A stretch of DNA of 39,709 nucleotides from Ignavibacteriaceae bacterium (GCA_013042995.1 JABDPB010000060.1:1-39709), one strand, 5' to 3'. Numbered from the stretch's first letter, positions 1,212 to 12,598 are shown. Notes: generated from the sequence alone by a model not told the origin. Numbers and translations: made by a program.

Positions 1212-2768
1212 TTACTTCAGCAGAGTCATCTTTTTAGATTTCACAATTCCGTTGGATTCTATTCTGTAGATGTACAATCCGCTGTTAAGGTTTTCTGCAT
1301 TGAAATTTATTGTGTGAACGCCTGCTTCTTTAAATTCATTTACAAGCTCTTCAACCTGCTCGCCTAATAGATTATAAACTACAAGCTTTACATTTCCAGC
1401 TTCCGGAAGTGAATACTTAATTGTTGTAGCTGGATTAAAAGGATTCGGATAGTTTTGTGAAAGCTCATACTCAATAGGAGATGTAATCTCAACATATACA
1501 ATATTAGAGTATTCATAACTTCCATCAAGATCTACCTGTTTTAATCTGTAGGCATAACTTCCTTCAGGCAGATTTGCATCTATAAACGAATAATGTTGTA
1601 TCTCTGTAGTTGAACCATTCCCAGTAACAAAACCAATTTTTTCCCATGCTTGAGATTCATCGTAACGCTGAACTTCAAATCCTGAATTATTTAACTCAGT
1701 AGCAGTTATCCAGCTTAATATTACTACATTCTCATTAACTGATGCATTGAATGATACCAATTCTACCGGTACGAGGCCAGACCAGGTGGTAGAAATAGTT
1801 AATCCGTCAAATAGGATGTAATGATCTTCCCCACCCTGTCTTAATGCAAAGAGTGTATTTACTTCATCAGAGGCTGTATCAATGTTTTCGGCATCTCCAT
1901 TAGTAGGTTCCGGACTAGAGAGATCCGGATTCACCCATAATTTTACTACATCATCGGTTCCAGTAGCATTGCCAATATATTCATACTTCATAACAATTAA
2001 ATATGTTACATCGTAAGAAAAATTTGATGGAACCCAGGAAACCTCGGACCCACTATTTCCTTTAGTGATTCCAAAGTTCAGGTTACCCGCGCCATCATCC
2101 TGTAAAAAAAATCTTGCTCTATAACTAAAACTTCCTATTGGAGGCATAAAATGTGCGACATATCCATTATCAGCCTCTGCAGTATCAACGTTTACAAGAA
2201 ATGCAGCATAAAGACTGCCTGAGCTAATAGGTTCAAATGCTCTGTGAATGTCCTCTCTTGAACCACTTCCCCCATCTAGTTGAGTATGATTTCCTATACC
2301 TGAAGCCGGATAACCAGGGAATGTTAGACTTCCCGAATATACACTTACAAATGTTCCGCTTCCGCTATGATTTACCCAGCCGTGGTAAGCTAATAAATCA
2401 TTTCCGTCATATTCAAAATTTTCGAGAAATGGTAATGATGCAGGTGTTGCAAACGATCCCCTCATTGAAATAGGATGGAATGAACAATTATATTCATATA
2501 CTCCAGGAACAGCTATGATGTAAGTATATGTATCACTTACTCCCGTAAATGTATAATCCCAGGTTGCTGCACCTGCAGGAACTAAAGTTGAAGTTGTTCT
2601 ATGCGTTCCTTCAACCAGTGTCCATACTACAGTATCACCTACAGCAGCATCAAATGATACCTCGGAAAAATAGAAATTGCCAACATCGATATTAAAGGTT
2701 GTACTTTGAGTTGGTTTAATACATAGTACTACCAGGGCAAGTAAAAAAAGAAAGTAGCCGTTTTTCAT
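1212..2768 (-). CDS. Secreted cupredoxin-domain protein with T9SS C-terminal sorting domain
   Basis: This 518-residue protein starts at an ATG preceded by GAGGAG. Residues 1-22 are a signal peptide. Residues 23-108 look like a plastocyanin/azurin-type cupredoxin: GTHRT supplies His56, and YNCSFHPISM supplies Cys95, His98 and Met102, a complete type-1 copper ligand set. Residues about 112-335 form a domain that is also present in the 605-residue protein at 6647-8464. A fibronectin-III-like stretch (PVELVSFNASV onward) follows. Residues about 432-518 are a type A T9SS sorting domain (SQNYPNPFNPATTIKYSLPE, then LNSGLYIYRI). The protein should be exported through Sec and the T9SS and anchored or released at the surface. 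Copper binding is inferred from the ligands, and an electron-transfer role is possible but unproven. Confidence 0.9.
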   Translation of the reverse strand: MKNGYFLFLLALVVLCIKPTQSTTFNIDVGNFYFSEVSFDAAVGDTVVWTLVEGTHRTTSTLVPAGAATWDYTFTGVSDTYTYIIAVPGVYEYNCSFHPISMRGSFATPASLPFLENFEYDGNDLLAYHGWVNHSGSGTFVSVYSGSLTFPGYPASGIGNHTQLDGGSGSREDIHRAFEPISSGSLYAAFLVNVDTAEADNGYVAHFMPPIGSFSYRARFFLQDDGAGNLNFGITKGNSGSEVSWVPSNFSYDVTYLIVMKYEYIGNATGTDDVVKLWVNPDLSSPEPTNGDAENIDTASDEVNTLFALRQGGEDHYILFDGLTISTTWSGLVPVELVSFNASVNENVVILSWITATELNNSGFEVQRYDESQAWEKIGFVTGNGSTTEIQHYSFIDANLPEGSYAYRLKQVDLDGSYEYSNIVYVEITSPIEYELSQNYPNPFNPATTIKYSLPEAGNVKLVVYNLLGEQVEELVNEFKEAGVHTINFNAENLNSGLYIYRIESNGIVKSKKMTLLK

Positions 2769-2886
2769 GTTTACTCCTCAATTTAGTATTGTAGATCAAA
2801 ATAACTTTTAATTAATACAAGTTAAAGTAATAATACGCAAAAACAATTTTCGTTAATAAATTGGCTTAACAAATTAGTGTGCAAAT

Positions 2887-4332
2887 TTATTTTACTAACT
2901 GCATCTTTTTTGCATCAGTAAAACCATTTAGTTCAATTTTATAAATGTATAATCCGCTGTTAAGATTTTCTGCATTGAAGTTGATTGTATGAACACCTGC
3001 TTCTTTAAACTCGTTAATAAGTTCTGCAACCTGCTCGCCTAATAAATTATAAACTACAAGCTTTACATTTCCTGCTTCCGGAAGCGTGTAGCGTATTTTT
3101 GTTGCCGGATTAAACGGATTAGGATAATTCTGGCTTAGCTCAAATTCCTGCGGTGAGCCAAGATCAACTTCTATTATTTTTGAGTACTCAAAACTGCCGT
3201 CTGTATCAATCTGCTTTAATCGGTAGGAATACTTTCCACCGTTTACTTCGCTATCAATGAAAGAATAATCTTTTGGTGAATTTGAATTTCCGTGTCCTTC
3301 AACAAAACCAATTTTTTCCCAATTATCATTCTGTGCAGAGCGAAGAATCTCAAAGCCATAGTTACTAACCTCTGTCTCTGTTCTCCATTCAAGCTTAACA
3401 CCACCATCCAAAACAACTGCAGAAAAGTATGCAAGTTCAACCGGCAATGGATTTATGTCGTCATAAAGACTAGTACCAACTGCATGAGGTGTATTAAATC
3501 CTAAAAGGTCTCCAATAGTAGGAGCAATATCAATCTGGTGGTGCAAATCCGGATTTTCCACACCTGCAGTTACATTTCTGCCAAGCACTAAAAGCATAAT
3601 GTGTTCGCAGCCTTCACAATTATCTCCATGACCGTTCCAGTTTCCTCCAGAATGTCTTCCGTGATCATTAGTAATAAATACTGAAGTATTTTGAGGGGTA
3701 TAACCATAGGTGCCGGTTTCAATTGTCTGCCATAGCTGATAAACCAGATTATCAGCATTAGAAATATCCGCAACATAATCATCCCAATCGTTAGAATGTC
3801 CTGCAACATCAACTTCTGCAAAATTTACAATTAAAATTTTGGGTTGATAGTTCTGCATAACAGAAATTGCCTTTGAGTATGTTAATGCATCATTTCTGTC
3901 ATCATCTCCAACCCAGACTCCACCGTACGATGAACCATAACCTGAAAAAACAGAATAGGTTAGTATATCCAGCTTATCTTTACCGGTAACTGCATAACAA
4001 TCGGATTGGGGATTTCCATCTTCTTCTCTTAAATATTCAAAAATTGTGGGAAATGTTGGTCTTTCTATACCATTATTTGCAATTGTCTGCCAGGTGCCTG
4101 TTAAAATTGATGCGTGCCCAGGATTTGTTGAAGTAATCCCTGCGTCTGCAATTCTGAAATTTGTGTAAAGATAGCCGTTCGGTTTAAGGTCGTTGTATAA
4201 ATGCGGAATGTAAGTGTTGCCCCCTCCAAATGTTTCCGAATATCTAGCACCATCAATTACAACGATAATAGCATTTTGAGCAAGTAGTAAATTTGTAAAA
4301 AGAAATAAAAGAAGTATAAGTTTTTCTTTCAA
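2887..4332 (-). CDS. Secreted type I phosphodiesterase / alkaline-phosphatase-fold protein with T9SS sorting domain
   Basis: I place the start at a TTG at 4332, behind GGGGAG. This gives a textbook signal peptide (KEKLILLLFLFTNLLLAQ); an ATG at 4404 would add 24 atypical residues in front. Numbered from the TTG, the alkaline-phosphatase-superfamily metal and catalytic residues appear in order: Asp27 (VVIDGAR), the likely nucleophile Thr69 (TSTNPGHAS), Asp175 and His179 (EVDVAGHSND), Asp223 and His224 (TNDHGRH), and a C-terminal His-rich stretch with DIAPTIGDLLG. It therefore probably hydrolyses phosphodiester or phosphomonoester bonds outside the cell; the substrate is unknown. A fibronectin-like linker and a type A T9SS sorting domain end the protein. 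No terminator is visible between it and the gene at 1212, so read-through is possible. Confidence 0.88.
   Translation of the reverse strand: MKEKLILLLFLFTNLLLAQNAIIVVIDGARYSETFGGGNTYIPHLYNDLKPNGYLYTNFRIADAGITSTNPGHASILTGTWQTIANNGIERPTFPTIFEYLREEDGNPQSDCYAVTGKDKLDILTYSVFSGYGSSYGGVWVGDDDRNDALTYSKAISVMQNYQPKILIVNFAEVDVAGHSNDWDDYVADISNADNLVYQLWQTIETGTYGYTPQNTSVFITNDHGRHSGGNWNGHGDNCEGCEHIMLLVLGRNVTAGVENPDLHHQIDIAPTIGDLLGFNTPHAVGTSLYDDINPLPVELAYFSAVVLDGGVKLEWRTETEVSNYGFEILRSAQNDNWEKIGFVEGHGNSNSPKDYSFIDSEVNGGKYSYRLKQIDTDGSFEYSKIIEVDLGSPQEFELSQNYPNPFNPATKIRYTLPEAGNVKLVVYNLLGEQVAELINEFKEAGVHTINFNAENLNSGLYIYKIELNGFTDAKKMQLVK
3326..3351 (-). repeat. Dispersed-repeat-like 26-mer inside the phosphodiesterase gene (copy 1)
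   Basis: The minus strand reads GAGATTCTTCGCTCTGCACA then GAATGA and encodes EILRSAQND. It resembles a 'GAGATTCTTCGC...CAGAATGAC' sequence that I recall as a common intergenic repeat in bacterial genomes. The other copies are at 4920-4945 and 7092-7117. Confidence 0.55.
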
Positions 4333-4430
4333 TTCGAACTCCCCAGATGGCTTCCTAATAATAATCTTGAAATAATGTAAGAAATTAAAATGAGAAAATC
4401 TCATATAATTTTTTGTTTAAACTCATAACA

Positions 4431-4458
4431 ATAAAAAAGCCCCAATATTTGGGGCTTT
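4431..4458 (-). terminator. Rho-independent terminator after the triple-repeat T9SS gene
   Basis: AAAGCCCCAA (4436-4445) pairs with TTGGGGCTTT (4449-4458) around a three-base loop, and a T run follows on the minus strand. It sits 22 bases after the stop at 4481. Confidence 0.87.
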
Positions 4459-4480
4459 ACAATGAAATATTTTTAAACAG

Positions 4481-6406
4481 CTATTTGATAAGTGTCATTT
4501 TTTTAGATTGCACAACTCCGATTGCTTCTATTTTGTAAATGAACAATCCGCTCTGTAGATTTTCTGCATTAAAGTTTATTGTGTGAACTCCTGCTTCTTT
4601 AAATTCATTTACTAGCTCTGCAACCTGCTCGCCCAATAAATTGTATACAACAAGTTTTACATTTCCTGCTTCCGGAATTGAATATTTAATTGTTGTAACC
4701 GGATTAAATGGATTTGGATAATTCTGGCTCAACTCAAATTTACCCGGTGAGCCAAGATCAACTTCGATTGCTTTTGAATACTCGAAGCTGCCGTCCGTAT
4801 CAAGCTGCTTTAATCGGTAAGAATATTTTCCAGCGGTAACATTATTATCAACAAAAGAATAATCTTTTGGTGAATTTGAATTTCCGTGTCCTTCTACAAA
4901 CCCAAGTTTCTGCCAACTGTCATTCTGAGTGGAGCGAAGAATCTCAAAGCCATAGTTATTTACCTCTGTTTCTGTTCTCCACTCTAGCTTAACACCATTT
5001 TCCAAAACAACTACAGAAAAGGAAGAGAGTTCTACTGGTAGCGGAACATCACTCGTTTTTTCAATTCTACTCAAGCTTAATCTGCTTTGGTATACACTTA
5101 TGTCCACACCAGAGGTAGGGTTTGCTGTCATATAGAGTTGATCCGTAGGATTTGAAATCAAAATAATCCCATTTCCACCCAATGCACCTCTGTCAGTACC
5201 GGATGTGGTTCTTCGGCCTGTTAATTGATCTATTTCGATTCCATTGTTCAAAATTTTAAAAGTAATATCAGCTCCTGCGCTGGTAGAATACGAAACAAAA
5301 TAATTTATTCTGTAGTACCCGGCTGAAATTCCAATTGGGGAAAATTTACTGCTGTTGAAAGACCAATAATTAATATCGGTAACATCATTTGAATAACCGG
5401 TTATTTGATTATCGGTTGAAGCAGTTAAACTTATCGGAGTGGGGGAAGATGTTGAGATATCCATGCTTGCATATGGGAATGGTTCAGAAACTTGTGATCC
5501 CCCATTAATTTTAACCAAGGAAATTTGGCAATACTTGACATCAAGATCCTTGTTATTACCATCAGCTTTTGCCTTTATTTTTAAGTTGTCTCCCTCGCTA
5601 ATGGCCAGCACTCCCCATAATGTAACATTACCAATGTCATTATTATTGCTGATTTTCCTTTCACCTTTTATCTCAACAGGATCTGAATCATTCTTTGATA
5701 CACTTAAAGTATATCCAGTGTTAGCTGAACCGTTAAAATTAAAGGAAGCACAAACAAGATAAGTCCCTGCTGAACCGGAACCCGCAGTTAGAACACCGGC
5801 CAAGTGTGACCAGTTTTGAAAGTTGGATGAAGTATAACCACTATTTGTCAAATCTGTGAATGATGTACCTATTGAGAGAGAGGAAGTACTGTTGTAAAAG
5901 CCCATCTCAGAATATGAATTGTAATCTGAAACATCCTCGACTTTTACTATACTCACAGAAGCATTTGTCACTGTAAGATTTGCAGTAGAAGGTGGATTTA
6001 CTTTAAAGTTAATATCGTCATTAGGATTTAAAGTCATATATCCTGAAGCTGAAACATTTCCTATATCCAGGTTCGATAAATATCTCGTCGCGCTTACAGA
6101 ACCCGGATTATCTGAATTAACAGCAACTCCCACGTCCCAGTCTCCAGTGACATTACCTGAAAAACTAAATGAAAAACTGACAAGGTAAAGGGCGCTGACA
6201 GAACTAACGGACTTAGATAGATCAGAGCTGCTGAAGGACCAGTCCGTACTCAATTCACCTTGTGTAAATGCGGTTAATTTCGTCCATCCGTTTATGCCAT
6301 TCTGGGAAGAAGGTGACGAAATATACATTGAAGAAAAACTCTGAGAGTTTAATTGAGTGAAACAAAAAAACATCCCTAAAACCATTGAAAATAACCAATT
6401 TCTCAT
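4481..6406 (-). CDS. Secreted protein with three jelly-roll-like repeats and T9SS sorting domain
   Basis: The start is the ATG at 6406, preceded by GGGAG and followed by a signal peptide (MRNWLFSMVLGMFFCFTQLNSQ without the last residues cleaved); an in-frame ATG at 6481 would add 25 unlikely residues. The 641-residue protein has three repeats of about 140-150 residues. Each begins with a phrase like 'MxIS...' or 'MGFYNS', continues through a 'W-S(F/H)' turn, and ends with a similar strand (ASVSIVKVE, CQISLVKIN, SRLSLSRIE). This layout resembles C1q/TNF-like or BclA-type jelly rolls, but that is inference. A fibronectin-like linker and a type A sorting domain (SQNYPNPFNPVTTIKYSIPE) follow. An adhesive or structural surface role is plausible; the ligand is unknown. 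Confidence 0.85.
   Translation of the reverse strand: MRNWLFSMVLGMFFCFTQLNSQSFSSMYISSPSSQNGINGWTKLTAFTQGELSTDWSFSSSDLSKSVSSVSALYLVSFSFSFSGNVTGDWDVGVAVNSDNPGSVSATRYLSNLDIGNVSASGYMTLNPNDDINFKVNPPSTANLTVTNASVSIVKVEDVSDYNSYSEMGFYNSTSSLSIGTSFTDLTNSGYTSSNFQNWSHLAGVLTAGSGSAGTYLVCASFNFNGSANTGYTLSVSKNDSDPVEIKGERKISNNNDIGNVTLWGVLAISEGDNLKIKAKADGNNKDLDVKYCQISLVKINGGSQVSEPFPYASMDISTSSPTPISLTASTDNQITGYSNDVTDINYWSFNSSKFSPIGISAGYYRINYFVSYSTSAGADITFKILNNGIEIDQLTGRRTTSGTDRGALGGNGIILISNPTDQLYMTANPTSGVDISVYQSRLSLSRIEKTSDVPLPVELSSFSVVVLENGVKLEWRTETEVNNYGFEILRSTQNDSWQKLGFVEGHGNSNSPKDYSFVDNNVTAGKYSYRLKQLDTDGSFEYSKAIEVDLGSPGKFELSQNYPNPFNPVTTIKYSIPEAGNVKLVVYNLLGEQVAELVNEFKEAGVHTINFNAENLQSGLFIYKIEAIGVVQSKKMTLIK
4919..5038 (-). 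repeat. Near-identical ~120-bp segment shared with 7091-7210
   Basis: By eye this stretch differs from 7091-7210 at only about a tenth of its positions, and a more diverged version lies at about 3325-3445. It encodes the start of the fibronectin-like linker in paralogous T9SS genes. The identity includes silent positions, which points to recent duplication or gene conversion. Confidence 0.75.
4920..4945 (-). repeat. Dispersed-repeat-like 26-mer inside the triple-repeat gene (copy 2)
   Basis: The minus strand reads GAGATTCTTCGCTCCACTCA then GAATGA and encodes EILRSTQND. This copy is the closest to the intergenic repeat I recall. Confidence 0.58.
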
Positions 6407-6582
6407 TTTCTCCCTTTTTCTGATTTTTGAACAAAGTGTCAGATTCACATTATTTATGCCAAAACTGTTAATATTTGTCAAAAATTAACCTTCAAATAAT
6501 AAAAAAACTGATACTTTTTAGGGTAGGTCACTCATATAATAACATAAAATTTGACAGAGTAGTTATTGATGTAAAAAAGTAA

Positions 6583-6610
6583 TGTAAAAAATCCCCGGTT
6601 AACCGAGGAC
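6583..6610 (-). terminator. Rho-independent terminator after the 605-residue T9SS gene
   Basis: On the minus strand TCCTCGG and CCGGGGA pair (6592-6598 with 6603-6609, one G-U pair) around TTAA, followed by a T run. It lies about 37 bases after the stop at 6647. Confidence 0.83.
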
Positions 6611-6646
6611 TAAGAAAAGATTTGTAAATGATTGGATTTTCAGACT

Positions 6647-8464
6647 TTATTTCAGAAGCATCATTTTTCTATTTTCAACTTTGTTTTTCGTTTCAAGTCT
6701 GTAAAAATAAATTCCGCTTGAAAAATTTTCAGCGTTAAATTCTGTTTCGTAAACTTTTTCGCCGTCTGCTAACCCGTTGAACAAAGTTGCAACTTCATTA
6801 CCTAAAACATCAAATACTTTTAGTTCTACATTTTGTGTTTTACCCAGCGCAAATTTTATAGAAGTTGTTGGATTGAATGGATTTGGAAAATTCTGTTCAA
6901 GTACAAATCCATTTGGTATATTCCCAGCATCAACTTCAATAATGTTACTGTATTCATAATCACCATCTGTATCAATCTGCTTTAATCTGTATGCAAAACT
7001 GCCGTATTGTGCATTGTTATCAGTAAAAGAATATTCTTTTGGTGAGTTTGAATTACCATGTCCCTCCACAAAACCAATTTTTTGCCCATTGTCATTCTGA
7101 GTGGAGCGAAGAATCTCAAATCCATAGTTATTTACCTCTGTCTCTGTTCTCCACTCAAGCTTAACTCCATTTTCCAAAACAACTGCAGAAAATGAGGAGA
7201 GTTCTACAGGCAAAGGTGCAAAATCCCAGCTATCTGAAATTCGGAAACCATCATATGTTGCTTCAAGTATATCGCCGCCAGGTACCTGTCTAAAACAAAT
7301 TGCATCTAATTCGTCCAATCCTGCACCTACATTAGAATATGCTCCAGGAGTTCCCGCATTTGATTCGCTGGAAGGAACACCAGCAGATTTCACCCATAAA
7401 CTTATTTCATCATTGGCACTAAAATTAATTACGTATTTGATGATAATTAAGTAGGTCTGATTTTTAGAATAGTCGGTAGGATCCCACTCTTCATTACCCC
7501 CAAGGGTTGAAACCCTTACCCCGAAATTCACGCTTCCATCTACTATTCTCATGTGAAATGCGCAGCAAAACTGATCAGTAAGTATATCAAAGTTAGGTGC
7601 ATCTGCCATGTGAAGTGAGTAGGATCCACCATCATTGAGATCAGTATCTGTTACATTAACAAGGAAAGATAGATAAAGTGTCGAACCATCTGAATTTTGA
7701 GGTGTAAGTAATCTATAAATATCCTCTCCACCAGCACCATAGAGATACGCTGCATTTCCAATACCTGATCCTTCGTAACCAGAATAAGCTAAACCAGTTG
7801 TAGTCGTAATTTGATTCTGAGTTCCCAAATAAGACACCCATCCATTGTCTCTTAGATCTCCTGAAAAATTAAAATCCTCATAAAATAGTAGTTCTCCATT
7901 TACAGTATTTATTGTAAAATCATCAATCATAATTCGTTCGGTAGATCCATTAGCCTGAAGTCTAACCTTTATATCAGGAGTTGCAGTTATAGTAAAGTTA
8001 TAAGAAAATAGTGACCAATCAGAAGTGTTGTTTAAGAATGTGTTATTAACAGTCCCAACGCTGTTCCAGACACTACCAACATCAGAGCTATACGCAACAT
8101 CAAAATCAGGGCTAGGAGCACCATCCCACCGTCTTACACGAAAAGAAAATCCATTAATTGAGTTAGTATTAACTGTGGCAATCCAGGATACACTACTATT
8201 ATCCCTTAATCGCCATGCATAAGATGAGTTGTTGTAAGTTGAAAGAGCTCCATCTTGAGTACCATCATTTTGTCGAAGTGCTGGCCCACCAGTAAAAATA
8301 ATCCCCACACCATTAATTGATGTGTTATACTGATGATCTGACTGATAAGATGCTAGAGTTCCCCCAATACCAGCAGTCCAATTTGCCACAGTGTCAAAAT
8401 TAACTGTTTGAGAAAAATTTGTAGAAATGAATGCAACAGTGAAAAATATAAAAATCTTTTTCAT
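6647..8464 (-). CDS. Secreted multidomain protein with T9SS sorting domain
   Basis: This 605-residue protein starts at an ATG behind GAGGG and has a signal peptide ending near TNFSQ. Residues about 20-190 are a beta-rich domain with the look of a carbohydrate-binding or lectin-like fold (FRVRRWDGAPSPDFDVAYS; KVRLQANGSTERIMIDDF). Residues about 193-415 repeat the domain in the protein at 1212-2768: matching phrases are GYEGSGIGN, GGEDIYRLL, LYLSFLVNV and TYLIIIKY. A fibronectin-like linker follows, containing the EILRSTQND segment. The sorting domain (LEQNFPNPFNPTTSIKFALG) is of a different subtype from the three genes to its left and matches the one in the protein at 9644-12598. Function is unknown; an extracellular binding role is inferred. 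Confidence 0.85.
   Translation of the reverse strand: MKKIFIFFTVAFISTNFSQTVNFDTVANWTAGIGGTLASYQSDHQYNTSINGVGIIFTGGPALRQNDGTQDGALSTYNNSSYAWRLRDNSSVSWIATVNTNSINGFSFRVRRWDGAPSPDFDVAYSSDVGSVWNSVGTVNNTFLNNTSDWSLFSYNFTITATPDIKVRLQANGSTERIMIDDFTINTVNGELLFYEDFNFSGDLRDNGWVSYLGTQNQITTTTGLAYSGYEGSGIGNAAYLYGAGGEDIYRLLTPQNSDGSTLYLSFLVNVTDTDLNDGGSYSLHMADAPNFDILTDQFCCAFHMRIVDGSVNFGVRVSTLGGNEEWDPTDYSKNQTYLIIIKYVINFSANDEISLWVKSAGVPSSESNAGTPGAYSNVGAGLDELDAICFRQVPGGDILEATYDGFRISDSWDFAPLPVELSSFSAVVLENGVKLEWRTETEVNNYGFEILRSTQNDNGQKIGFVEGHGNSNSPKEYSFTDNNAQYGSFAYRLKQIDTDGDYEYSNIIEVDAGNIPNGFVLEQNFPNPFNPTTSIKFALGKTQNVELKVFDVLGNEVATLFNGLADGEKVYETEFNAENFSSGIYFYRLETKNKVENRKMMLLK
7091..7210 (-). repeat. Near-identical ~120-bp segment shared with 4919-5038
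   Basis: Partner of the duplicated linker-coding segment. It encodes the same part of the fibronectin-like domain in a gene whose sorting domain is of the other subtype. The junction between the two T9SS CTD subtypes lies after this segment. Confidence 0.75.
7092..7117 (-). repeat. Dispersed-repeat-like 26-mer inside the 605-residue gene (copy 3)
   Basis: Same 26 bases as copy 2, read in the same frame as EILRSTQND. Confidence 0.58.
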
Positions 8465-8650
8465 TACACCCTCACAAATATTATGGTTGGAATATTTGTT
8501 AAAAAAATTTTTAGTGGTAACTGTGTGTTTATGCCCTCCAGCATAGCTGCATCGCTACTATGTTTTAAATACAACTAATTTAAACGTAAATATTTTTATT
8601 AAAAGAAGCCATAAAATTTGTGTTAAATTAATTTTTTAATTAATTGGGCA

Positions 8651-8680
8651 ATAAAAAACCCTGCAAATGCAGGGCTTAGT
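8651..8680 (-). terminator. Rho-independent terminator after the lipoprotein gene
   Basis: CCCTGC (8659-8664) pairs with GCAGGG (8669-8674) around AAAT, and a T run follows on the minus strand. It is about 35 bases after the stop at 8710. Confidence 0.83.
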
Positions 8681-8709
8681 TAAAATTTTCATTGAAAAAG
8701 AATTATATA

Positions 8710-9300
8710 TTATCTAACCCATCCAAATCGAGAGTCTGTTTCATACATAACATTCTGACCAATCAATACATTATCAACAATGAACTCCGGTGCTTTCAAT
8801 TCAATAATTCCGCTTGCAATATCAATATCTATTGATTCGTATAACACATTATATATCTCACCTGAACTTTGATTTATAAAATCGATGTCTTCAGGATTTA
8901 CATTAAATAAATCCAATCCTTCAAACTTTACGTACAAATCGGATGGTTGGTTGAAAATTGTTGACGGTGATAAGTCTATGACCCCAGTTTCGTTATCTAT
9001 TGTCATAGTTATCATTAAGGGCTCAGGCACGGTGTTTTCATAGATATTGAATTTCGCTATGACTTTTACCTCTCCGTGTGGTCCACCACTATATGATTCA
9101 TCGATTATCAACTCACCGCCTTCGACATCAATGTATTCTGTAACGGAGAATTGATTTTCGATTGATAAGCCATTTCCTTCAGGTAGTTGAATCCACTGAG
9201 GGATTTCAAGTTGGTTTTGATTGGATTCTACAGGTGTTTCTTCAACACAAGAAACAAGAAGAAGAAGTATCAAGAATACTAAAGTGTTCACAGTTTTCAC
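8710..9300 (-). CDS. Putative lipoprotein, function unknown
   Basis: This 196-residue protein starts at a GTG at 9300, supported by a strong AGGAGG eight bases upstream. The N-terminus is a lipoprotein signal with the lipobox LLVSC (Cys18), so it should be lipid-anchored after cleavage by signal peptidase II. The mature part is acidic and beta-rich. It contains a strand-turn pattern (GGELIIDESYSGGPHGEVKV) and ends in a segment rich in Ile and Asp. I recognise no domain. It is the only member of this array without a T9SS sorting domain, and it has its own ribosome site and terminator. A link to the neighbouring secreted proteins is only positional. Confidence 0.8.
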   Translation of the reverse strand: MKTVNTLVFLILLLLVSCVEETPVESNQNQLEIPQWIQLPEGNGLSIENQFSVTEYIDVEGGELIIDESYSGGPHGEVKVIAKFNIYENTVPEPLMITMTIDNETGVIDLSPSTIFNQPSDLYVKFEGLDLFNVNPEDIDFINQSSGEIYNVLYESIDIDIASGIIELKAPEFIVDNVLIGQNVMYETDSRFGWVR

Positions 9301-9643
9301 TAGGAAACCTCCTAAATATGAGACAAATTATTTAGTAAAATTCCTCACTTCTTTAGCATCCCTATGGCGTAGCAGTCCCAAGTTATATGCCATTAAGATA
9401 GAGAGCCACTATTTTTCTATTGTATCATTTAAAATCAAGTATTAACAACATTTATATTCTATTTAGCTGCTTTAAAGTGTGATAAATTGAAAAACCTGTT
9501 TGAAAATGAAACACATTTTTTTCAACTAATTTAAGAACTGCATTCAACAGTTAATAAAAAGATTGAATGGCATGAAGTTAGTTTCACATAAAAAAACCCC
9601 CGGTAAAACGGGGGCAAATAGTTAGTTTAGTTTTTTTTCTTAA
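9301..9643. other. 343-bp intergenic stretch
   Basis: It holds the terminator of the gene at 9644 at its right end and the AGGAGG ribosome site of the lipoprotein at its left end. Between them the minus strand has a possible weak stem around 9361-9410 and a TGGCATATAACTTGG string that only partly resembles a sigma-54 promoter. No ORF, tRNA or riboswitch that I recognise. Confidence 0.5.
9588..9615 (-). terminator. Rho-independent terminator after the Asp-box propeller gene
   Basis: CCCCCG (9597-9602) pairs with CGGGGG (9609-9614) around GTAAAA, followed by seven T on the minus strand. It lies about 30 bases after the stop at 9644. Confidence 0.87.
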
Positions 9644-12598
9644 TTATTTGAGAAGCAGCATTTTGCGGTTTTCAACTTTGTTTTTAGTTTCAAGTATGTA
9701 AAAATAAATTCCGCTTGAAAAGTTCTCCGCACTAAATACAGCTTCGTAAACTTTGCCACCATCTGCAATGCCGGAAAATAAATTAGCAACTTCGTTTCCT
9801 AAAATATCAAACACTTTTAATTCTGCTTTTTGTGTTTCTGCAACAGCAAATTTTATTGTTGTAATTGGATTAAATGGATTTGGATAATTCTGCTCAAGTA
9901 CAAATCCATTTGGAATAGTACCCGCATCGACTTCAATTACATCGCTGTATTCAAAATCACCATCTGTATCAATCTGCTTTAGCTTGTAAGCAAAGCTGCC
10001 GTATTTAGCATTTGTATCAGTAACCGTATACTCTTTCGGAGAGTTACTGTTTCCGTGTCCTTCAACAAAACTAATCTTTTCCCATAAAGTATCATTTTCA
10101 GCAAGCTGAGTTCTTTCAACATCAAAACCGAAGTTATCAACCTCTGTTTCGGTACGCCAATCAAGTTTAACTCCGCCGCTTCGTAAAACTTTTGCAGTGA
10201 AGGAAGAGAGTTCTACTGGTAAAGCAGCATCAATATTAGTTTCCCATAATCCGCGTCCATAAGTACCAGCTCTTAATTTATTGGTCCCGCCGGTATAGAG
10301 TATTTCTAGTTCTGTAACAACAACATTCGGTAAGCCTGTATTGAACGGCACCCAATTATTTATTCCATCTTTTACATAAACACCTAAATCGGTACCAACG
10401 AACAAAACGTTACGGTCTGTAGCTACTTTGTAATAAACAATACACATAACCGGAAGATCTGGAAGTCCGGTTGATATATTAGTCCAACTTCCACCACCGT
10501 CTGTTGATTCGTAGACTTTTGCTCCTGCAGTATAACCTCCGAAGGTAATCCAGAGAGTATTTGGATCATCATCCTTAACGGCGATGTAAGTTATGCTATT
10601 TGAGCTAGCCGGAAGCGTGATTGAAGACCAATTTGTTCCACCATTTGTTGTTCTCCACATGTTTGTTAAGTCTGCTGCATAGAGAAAATTTGAATTTGAA
10701 GATGCAATTGCAAGAGAACGTAATTTTGTGGTAGAGCTTAAAACAGATGACGCACTTGTCCAAGTATTTCCGCGATTGGTCGTTTCCCAAATTTGATCAT
10801 AACCTGCGAAAAGAGTTGCACTGTTATTAGGATCTATGATATAAGGGGTGACCCATGCACCCGTCGGTTGTCCACCTGGGATATTCGCCGAGATATCAGT
10901 TGGAAATGAAAGTCCTCCATTCGTACTCCTCGAAATTTGTCCCCTAACATAAGTTGCATACATATAATTAGAGTTTGAATAATCCACAATACATTCCATT
11001 CCATCTCCGCCTTTAACATCAGTCCAGAACCCGCCATTATATAACTTTGAGCCATTATCCTGCAGTCCTGTTAGAACAGTATTAACACTAGTTTGAGATA
11101 CGCCAATTCTGTAAATCTGGCTTATTACCATTCCATTTGTTAAATCAATCCAGCTTGTTCCTCCATCTGTAGTTTTATAAATACCTCCGTCATTTCCTTC
11201 GAAAAGTGTTGTGCCGCTTTGAAATGCTAATGTGTGTTTATCAGCGTGTGCAACAGGTGCGCCACTCTTGTTATAAACAAAATAACTGGTCCACATATTA
11301 CTTATAGTCCAGGTTACTCCGCCATCAGATGATTTCCAGGTATTTACGCCTCCGATATATACTGTATTTGCATTGGTTGGTGAAGCTGCAATACAAAGAT
11401 CATAAGTTCCCTGACCTGTTGTTCCACCAGATCCATCACTATAATATCCCAACATATTCTGACTAGTATTTGTATTCACCTGAGAGATACTCGTTCCACT
11501 GTTGGTAGATTTATAAACACCCAGCAACCCTCCTGAATTATTACAGGCAAGAAGATAAACGACTGTTGGATTATTGGGTGTAACAGTAATTTCGTTTCGA
11601 TATCCATTTGCTCCAATACTTAAATATGACCAACTCTCTCCATTATTCGTTGATTTAGCCAAATATCCCTGATTGTATCCAAAAGATGATCCATATATAG
11701 TATTGTGATCTCCTGGTTTAAATTCCATGTCAATCCATCGATTTGGATCTTTTTGTGTCCAGGAGGTACCAGAATTTGTAGTTTTATAAATACCACTTGA
11801 AGTAGAAGCTAACAGAATCGTATTATCTGTTGGATCTATCAATAGTCGATAAATTATCACACCACTACTATTTACAAACGTTAAGCCAGTTGCACTCCAG
11901 GTTGAGCCGCTATCTGTAGATTTGTAAACGCCTACAGAATTATTATCTGCTGATTGTCCACCACCCAAAGCCCACATGCTTCCACCATCTCGGTCACCTG
12001 TTGCAATGTATAAAATGTTGGGATTTGTATAATCAACAACAATATCACTTACGCCGACTACCAGTTCATTATCATTCAGGTTGGTCCAATTGCTTCCTCC
12101 ATTCGTTGTCTTCCACAAACCACCGGAAGGACTGCCAACCCAAAAAGTATTGGCATCGGTAGGATGGAAAGCAATACAATTAATTCTTCCGATACCGGCA
12201 TAACCTCCAGTTGAGCTGCTGGTTCCTAAATTTACCCAGTTTTCATCGTAAGTGATTTTATTAAGATTATTTTGAGAGTTCAAATATTTTTCATACTCAA
12301 TAACTGAGTTTGTGGTGGGAAATTCTCCTGTCTCCTGGTTTACTCTTTGTTCCCAGTACCATTCCCAGCGTTTAAATATTTTCCAGCCCGGAGCTTTTTC
12401 CTTAACACCATTTTCAACATAATACCCATCTGTAACATTGTATGGGGCGTAATAATCGTTGAATGATCGTTGAATTTCGTAAAAATTCTTAGGATTATTA
12501 TTATTTAGCGTGCTCAACTGAGTATTTAGTTGTGTTTGCTGAGAAAAGATAAATGAGTTATTTAAAGTTAATAAAAATAAGAAAAGCGCCTTTTTCAT
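9644..12598 (-). CDS. Secreted Asp-box (BNR/sortilin-like) beta-propeller protein with T9SS sorting domain
   Basis: This 984-residue protein has a signal peptide (to about residue 20) and an N-terminal helical-looking segment rich in Trp and Tyr (GWKIFKRWEWYWEQR, residues 71-85). From about residue 160 to 710 come eleven Asp-box-type motifs of the form S/T-x-D/N-x-G-x-S/T-W, such as TTNGGSNW, STDSGSTW, SSDGGVTW and TTDGGTSW. Such motifs mark multi-bladed propellers of the sialidase/Vps10 (sortilin) type. HADKHTLAF followed by a downstream NDGGIY is typical of this secreted BNR group. No sialidase Arg triad was identified, so an enzyme activity is not claimed. A fibronectin-like linker and a type A sorting domain (LEQNYPNPFNPITTIKFAVA) end the protein. 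Unlike its three relatives it has VERTQLAEND where they have EILRSTQND. Confidence 0.9.
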   Translation of the reverse strand: MKKALFLFLLTLNNSFIFSQQTQLNTQLSTLNNNNPKNFYEIQRSFNDYYAPYNVTDGYYVENGVKEKAPGWKIFKRWEWYWEQRVNQETGEFPTTNSVIEYEKYLNSQNNLNKITYDENWVNLGTSSSTGGYAGIGRINCIAFHPTDANTFWVGSPSGGLWKTTNGGSNWTNLNDNELVVGVSDIVVDYTNPNILYIATGDRDGGSMWALGGGQSADNNSVGVYKSTDSGSTWSATGLTFVNSSGVIIYRLLIDPTDNTILLASTSSGIYKTTNSGTSWTQKDPNRWIDMEFKPGDHNTIYGSSFGYNQGYLAKSTNNGESWSYLSIGANGYRNEITVTPNNPTVVYLLACNNSGGLLGVYKSTNSGTSISQVNTNTSQNMLGYYSDGSGGTTGQGTYDLCIAASPTNANTVYIGGVNTWKSSDGGVTWTISNMWTSYFVYNKSGAPVAHADKHTLAFQSGTTLFEGNDGGIYKTTDGGTSWIDLTNGMVISQIYRIGVSQTSVNTVLTGLQDNGSKLYNGGFWTDVKGGDGMECIVDYSNSNYMYATYVRGQISRSTNGGLSFPTDISANIPGGQPTGAWVTPYIIDPNNSATLFAGYDQIWETTNRGNTWTSASSVLSSTTKLRSLAIASSNSNFLYAADLTNMWRTTNGGTNWSSITLPASSNSITYIAVKDDDPNTLWITFGGYTAGAKVYESTDGGGSWTNISTGLPDLPVMCIVYYKVATDRNVLFVGTDLGVYVKDGINNWVPFNTGLPNVVVTELEILYTGGTNKLRAGTYGRGLWETNIDAALPVELSSFTAKVLRSGGVKLDWRTETEVDNFGFDVERTQLAENDTLWEKISFVEGHGNSNSPKEYTVTDTNAKYGSFAYKLKQIDTDGDFEYSDVIEVDAGTIPNGFVLEQNYPNPFNPITTIKFAVAETQKAELKVFDILGNEVANLFSGIADGGKVYEAVFSAENFSSGIYFYILETKNKVENRKMLLLK

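Follow-up and report, generated by a model that had tools for sequence, protein, structure and literature searches.

A dispersed hairpin repeat captured in frame in T9SS cargo genes of Ignavibacteria-type bacteria

T9SS genes and repeat copies in the window

The window is a stretch of 39,709 nucleotides from an Ignavibacteriaceae bacterium (GCA_013042995.1 JABDPB010000060.1:1-39709). Five paralogous genes are situated between 1212 and 12598, and all five scored above cut-off for the C-terminal T9SS type A sorting domain (TIGR04183/PF18962). In the T9SS-secreted proteins concerned the sorting domain is preceded by a fibronectin-like (FN-like) module, and the product of 2887..4404 also contains a sulfatase/phosphodiesterase-like domain along with its FN-like module and type A sorting domain. 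An earlier note on this DNA had pointed out a 26-mer, GAGATTCTTCGCTCCACTCAGAATGA, in three of the genes. It was found on the minus strand at three places, 3326-3351 (3 mismatches), 4920-4945 and 7092-7117 (both without mismatch), while its chance expectation in 100 dinucleotide shuffles is 0. All three copies share one frame and read FEILRS[TA]QND, and the paralogues 1212-2768 and 9644-12598 possess no repeat but FEVQRYDESQAWEK and FDVERTQLAENDTLWEK at the corresponding site, as the earlier note had observed. The 26-mer itself is present but incomplete, as the true unit is 28 nt (...GAATGACA). The unit was also said to replace the start of a strand; it instead covers the end of one strand and the following beta-hairpin turn. 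The features are listed in Table 1.

Table 1. Repeat copies, host genes and repeat-less modules, in window positions
Feature	Position	Strand	Remark
Captured 28-nt hairpin repeat, copy 1	3324..3351	-	EILRSAQND(N); 23/27 bases as in dispersed consensus
Captured 28-nt hairpin repeat, copy 2	4918..4945	-	EILRSTQND(S); 25/27 bases as in dispersed consensus
Captured 28-nt hairpin repeat, copy 3	7090..7117	-	EILRSTQND(N); strand end and beta-hairpin turn
T9SS cargo gene hosting copy 1	2887..4404	-	
T9SS cargo gene hosting copy 2	4481..6481	-	
T9SS cargo gene hosting copy 3	6647..8464	-	Mosaic
Repeat-less FN-like module (FEVQRYDESQAWEK), paralogue 1212-2768	1491..1772	-	Control site
Repeat-less FN-like module (FDVERTQLAENDTLWEK), paralogue 9644-12598	9926..10222	-	Syntenic G001 orthologue with repeat

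The FN modules of the three repeat-bearing genes share 76-81% identity. In 6647-8464 the FN module resembles those of the two repeat-bearing neighbours, while the sorting domain resembles that of 9644-12598 (79% identity, against 44% to the repeat-bearing neighbours). The sorting domain of 1212-2768 is 82-83% identical to those of 2887-4404 and 4481-6481, and its FN module 49%. As the FN and sorting-domain identities disagree, modules have been exchanged between neighbouring genes. The three window copies probably represent one capture. For these copies only, a single capture, with the FN modules shuffled among sorting domains, is the simplest reading. Across the five paralogues at 1212-12598, the FN-like module and the sorting domain differ in their nearest neighbour, and the mosaic genes look as they would after recombination at the module boundary.

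Hairpin structure and genomic spread of the repeat family

The repeat unit is a 28-nt imperfect palindrome, GAGATTCTTCGCTTCGCTCAGAATGACA, with TGTC-ATTCT-GA-GC-GAA-GC-GA-AGAAT-CTC on the other strand. It is the shortest form of a family composed of TC-[5-bp stem]-GA-[inner stem-loop, 3 to about 30 nt]-GA-[stem']-CT, the units of which range from 25 to about 47 nt (common form 28 nt) and occur singly or as inverted pairs, normally between genes. An inverted neighbour within 80 nt was found for 60/117 units, and a direct neighbour only for 0/117. Analysis of the intergenic copies (n=85) revealed covariation in the 5-bp outer stem and the 2-bp inner stem, with compensatory double Watson-Crick changes at pairs 5-21, 7-19, 10-16 and 11-15 (each 0/1000 shuffles). 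The adjacent non-pairing TC/CT (GA/GA) positions were invariant in 82/85 and 81/85 copies. On the purine strand, tandem G-A mismatches adjoin the GC-GAA-GC loop, and members with a long inner stem retain the GA/GA pair. Loops of the GC-GAA-GC type and sheared GA pairs stabilise single-stranded DNA, and sheared GA pairs are predicted in the purine strand, TGTCATTCTGAGCGAAGCGAAGAATCTC. With the standard energy model, the predicted folding of the short unit was no better than that of shuffles.

The own genome (3.44 Mb) showed 12 matches to the core pattern and 0 to the reversed control pattern. T9SS genes account for eight of the matches: seven lie at the FN-like turn (contigs C50, C60, C71 with three, C147 and C14) and one lies in a sorting domain (C101). 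Of the other four, those on C144, C84 and C129 are intergenic, and the match in rho is due to chance. The own-genome enrichment has P about 6e-10 after duplicates were collapsed. A general pattern added two units, on C30 and C171, the C30 unit being intergenic. Among relatives, 24/59 genomes possess matches, compared with 1 match in total for the control pattern; most relatives were sampled by the DNA pattern, which biases toward well-preserved copies, and many are draft assemblies, while G001 and G023, two genomes with key examples, are single contigs. Exact matches were also found in Planctomycetes, Cyanobacteria, Firmicutes (Clostridia), Chloroflexi and other phyla. The earlier reading as an intergenic repeat of many bacterial genomes is borne out: the sequence is a dispersed, imperfectly palindromic repeat, intergenic as well as genic here and in relatives, and its pattern recurs in many phyla. 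The genome-wide search found copies between genes and not in T9SS genes only. Rfam gave no match to the element, and literature searches by DNA motif and translated peptides gave no description of it.

Own genome and relatives together gave 120 distinct classified copies. Of these, 85 are intergenic (a count that takes in a C147 copy with a frameshift or stop), 27 fall within T9SS genes and the remaining 8 within other ORFs. T9SS cargo genes thus hold 27/35 intragenic copies, and the intragenic total becomes about 31 after removal of chance and marginal matches; in-frame copies comprise the 27 in T9SS genes and about 4 in other ORFs. The more credible of these other ORFs encode a type I restriction methylase/specificity fusion, a GT2 glycosyltransferase, a phage-type terminase and an NRPS, and in the methylase fusion and the terminase the repeat sits between Pfam domains. 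The rho match on C6 (GERFFALLRVEAVNG) and L022, with 3 mismatches each, were rejected as chance. The strict FN form was present in 10/391 genomes (8 genera) of a class-wide sample, and two of these matches are non-T9SS, so the phenomenon is patchy.

G045, of the same order, shows about 80 element matches, many of them regular inverted pairs ~26-39 nt apart with two inner loops. A second dispersed palindrome, CCTGCCTGCCGGCAGGCAGG-like and read LPTGQAG or SCLAGRQV, was observed inside genes at L018 (GT2, TVDMLRQAQNDSLLTTNLPTGQAG), L016, L142 and L267, and once nested within the inner loop of a hairpin unit at the FN turn. At L009 (C84) a related yet distinct dispersed sequence, GTCATTGCGGGCAAAGCGAAGCCATCTCC, adjoins the hairpin unit upstream of the copy, and on a Bacteroidia contig (L057) a tandem-like run read EILRCAQNDRRSAQIDRRCAQNDRRSAQID lies downstream of the repeat.

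Protein site, origin and recurrence of the captured copies

Almost all T9SS copies are situated at the beta-hairpin turn of the FN-like module (FEILR[S/F][A/T]QND). For the window module, AlphaFold gave a model (pLDDT 85) composed of a strand at 29-40, a turn at 41-46 and a strand at 47-58, in which the repeat of copy 3 forms residues 36-44. The model of the repeat-less paralogue 1212-2768 has the same hairpin, with strands 28-40 and 44-57. The sorting-domain sites, mapped by alignment and by eye on the AlphaFold model, align with turns 126-129 and 178-181. A fold search recovered FN3 pairs and T9SS PorU, and phmmer against PDB sequences gave no match. With the common form the linker length changes by 0 to +3 residues, and with the longest by about +7.

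About 38 distinct FN-like modules were found in the own genome by a protein search, which avoids bias from the repeat. Seven have EILR in near-identical codons, and about 31/38 have diverse, unrelated native codons. In this set the same-amino-acid codon agreement reaches 85% within the element, while the flanks show 53% and 60%, and the probability of the codon string by local codon usage is 2e-4 per gene. Judged by their codons, the T9SS gene copies are derived from the repeat at the DNA level. At codon 5, Ser, the native residue, is found in 13/20 T9SS copies against 18/85 (p = 3e-4), and the A/T inner pair, which would change Arg, in 0/20 against 31/85 (p = 6e-4). The Ser bias and the absence of the A/T pair suggest selection on the protein, though the distribution of the variants among genomes confounds both comparisons. 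Native sites score 10.9/28 against the repeat (background 7.1, sd 1.3), and their median rank places them among the top 6% of positions. Only moderate support is obtained for a choice of the native site by its resemblance to the repeat.

Two other loci may be mentioned here. The sequence FEVLRSRKNENEDW at L111 (C153:9160-9844 of the own genome) may represent a captured repeat in decay. On contig C147 of G000 (L084/L008), a repeat-bearing T9SS gene has an in-frame TGA just upstream (VKLC*RTETE), representing a pseudogene, recoding or an assembly error.

The capture was earlier suggested to precede the duplication of the genes, which fits only the window copies; elsewhere captures are recurrent. 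To account for the repeat on a tree of 56 FN plus sorting-domain modules, built with the repeat columns removed, 12 changes are needed. A single clade of repeat-bearing modules was rejected (p-AU 7e-6 for all modules and 7e-6 for the own genome), and the repeat labels cluster on the tree more than shuffles. One orthologous gene, compared between two genera (labelled g1 and g19), carries the unit in opposite orientations. In the genus of the window, two species possess the forward unit (FEILRS[AT]QND), while a third and a fourth have native AVERSVDNKF and DVERGQDNITF. In the other genus, three species show the opposite-orientation unit (EIQRSVIPSGARNLSW and decaying forms) and three have native EIQRTSDRTF or similar.

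At the G001 locus, which is syntenic with the window (sister species), both the presence and the variant of the repeat differ. The orthologue of 9644-12598 contains the repeat as FEILRSAKYD where the window counterpart has FDVERTQLAEND, and its neighbour has a long unit, FEILRGVYPAKSRTQND. As in the window, no repeat is present in the orthologue of 1212-2768. Longer family members with other inner loops occupy the same FN turn (EILRGVYPAKSRTQND, EILRSCLAGRQVTQND), as do further long variants (FEILRSCLAGRQVTQND) and double units (EILRSAQND-SHSEEQSDEES-W). Two turns of the sorting domain also bear units, read in other frames (IPDNVILSEAKNLTTLKVYD and FVIPSGARNLVTLKVYD, and YTLRVADSSLRSEFYETKKM). 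Hairpin captures in T9SS genes are therefore recurrent, nearly always at one turn and in the right frame.

Explanation of the captures and relation to known systems

It is highly probable that a dispersed intergenic hairpin family of Ignavibacteria-type genomes has been repeatedly captured into T9SS genes, chiefly at one FN turn. The observed parts of this explanation are the presence of the repeat and its family, the covariation in its hairpin, and its recurrence, frame and position. A copy would land, or be copied, into turn-coding DNA and take the place of native codons, while the net length would hardly change. Copies would persist only if they are in frame and free of stops and lie in surface turns that tolerate them, and persistence may be helped because the frame GAG ATT CTT CGC TCC GCT CAG AAT GAC (EILRSAQND) resembles native FE[IV]ERSxDN. 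Within gene clusters a captured copy could then spread with its FN module via recombination between paralogues, and its inner loop could later be exchanged or extended. No clean insertion with target-site duplication was found; the length of repeat-bearing linkers is within 0 to 3 residues of that of native ones, and replacement must therefore be assumed. As the unit replaces rather than inserts, we infer an insertion-plus-trimming or template-switch step. On the simplest view the captured repeat is tolerated selfish DNA which adds turn diversity. A bolder and rather doubtful idea is that the family acts as an exchangeable beta-turn cassette, in which the DNA arms encode fixed flanks (EILR ... 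[AT]QND) and the variable loop encodes the turn. Recombination among genomic copies would then swap turns on T9SS surface proteins and may seed the shuffling of FN modules and sorting domains.

Resemblance of native FE[IV]ERSxDN to the peptide, together with the raised score of native sites, might hint that EILRSTQND is a conserved protein linker under amino-acid selection and its likeness to the repeat due to chance. This is scarcely credible, as the identical 28 nt lie between genes and on either strand, and the intergenic copies already refute it. The unrelated codons of most paralogous modules, the far too uniform synonymous codons, and the other frames and orientations used at the FN turn or at other turns also stand against it. 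One ancient T9SS capture, followed only by duplication, vertical descent and loss, would agree with the similar FN modules of neighbouring window genes and with the clustering of labels on the tree. The rejection of a single clade, the opposite-orientation copies at the same position of the same gene lineage, the other turns hit and the several inner-loop variants make it very improbable. Short-tract gene conversion among T9SS paralogues could have copied one captured repeat into many genes, and module exchange in the window cluster is real. It is unlikely, since distant paralogues are identical only within the repeat unit, identity drops at once outside, and loop variants and orientations differ; it may account for part of the copies.

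The source of mobility was considered in relation to REP/REPIN, which are short imperfect hairpins, mostly extragenic and often in inverted doublets (PMC3116915, where small dispersed repeats, SDR, are also mentioned). The hairpin element shares with them the imperfect palindrome with compensatory changes, the inverted doublets within 80 nt and the predominantly extragenic position (85/120 copies). These features, the many matches in one relative (up to about 80) and one inverted pair of G045 about 290 nt from a Y1_Tnp (IS200-type transposase) gene, L276, would fit a RAYT/REP (REPIN) system proper, mobilised by a Y1 transposase. In contrast, Y1_Tnp is absent from the own genome (assembly 91.6% complete), its correlation with repeat copy number among relatives is weak (rho 0.27), and most Y1_Tnp genes examined have no repeat unit within about 1 kb and no consistent neighbourhood. 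Such a system is thus quite improbable. Unlike REP/REPIN with RAYT, no linked RAYT (Y1 transposase) gene was found for the hairpin element, and the element enters coding sequence. The cyanobacterial SDR, reportedly described by Elhai in 2008, are said to be 21-27 bp with hairpin potential and to enter functional sequences; the likeness of the hairpin element to them is one of description, in size, hairpin potential and entry into functional sequences.

Rickettsia palindromic elements (RPE) are described, in the part of PMC10969869 that cites Ogata 2000, as dispersed palindromic DNA found in frame in protein-coding genes and translated. The likeness to RPE proposed earlier is apt, as here also a hairpin element sits in frame inside protein-coding genes. 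An RPE unit is about 100-150 bp, compared with a common form of 28 nt for the hairpin element, which is mostly intergenic. RPE insertion adds 30-50 residues, a long peptide, whereas the hairpin element replaces native codons. The hosts of RPE are unrelated metabolic genes, while 27 of about 31 plausible in-gene copies of the hairpin element lie in T9SS cargo genes. On these descriptions, which set the two apart, the hairpin element may be taken to work like RPE without being one.

To our knowledge, in-frame capture of palindromic repeats was previously documented mainly in Rickettsiales. Compared with those, the captured repeat is here much shorter, recurs at one structural site and belongs to free-living Ignavibacteria-type bacteria. 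Caution is needed with predicted proteins that contain strings such as EILRSAQND, VILSEAKNL and DSSLRSE, since these can come from a translated repeat. Capture is traceable among orthologues by sites that are empty, by units in opposite orientations, by loop variants and by copies in decay, so that the way in which mobile repeats turn into protein sequence is open to direct test.
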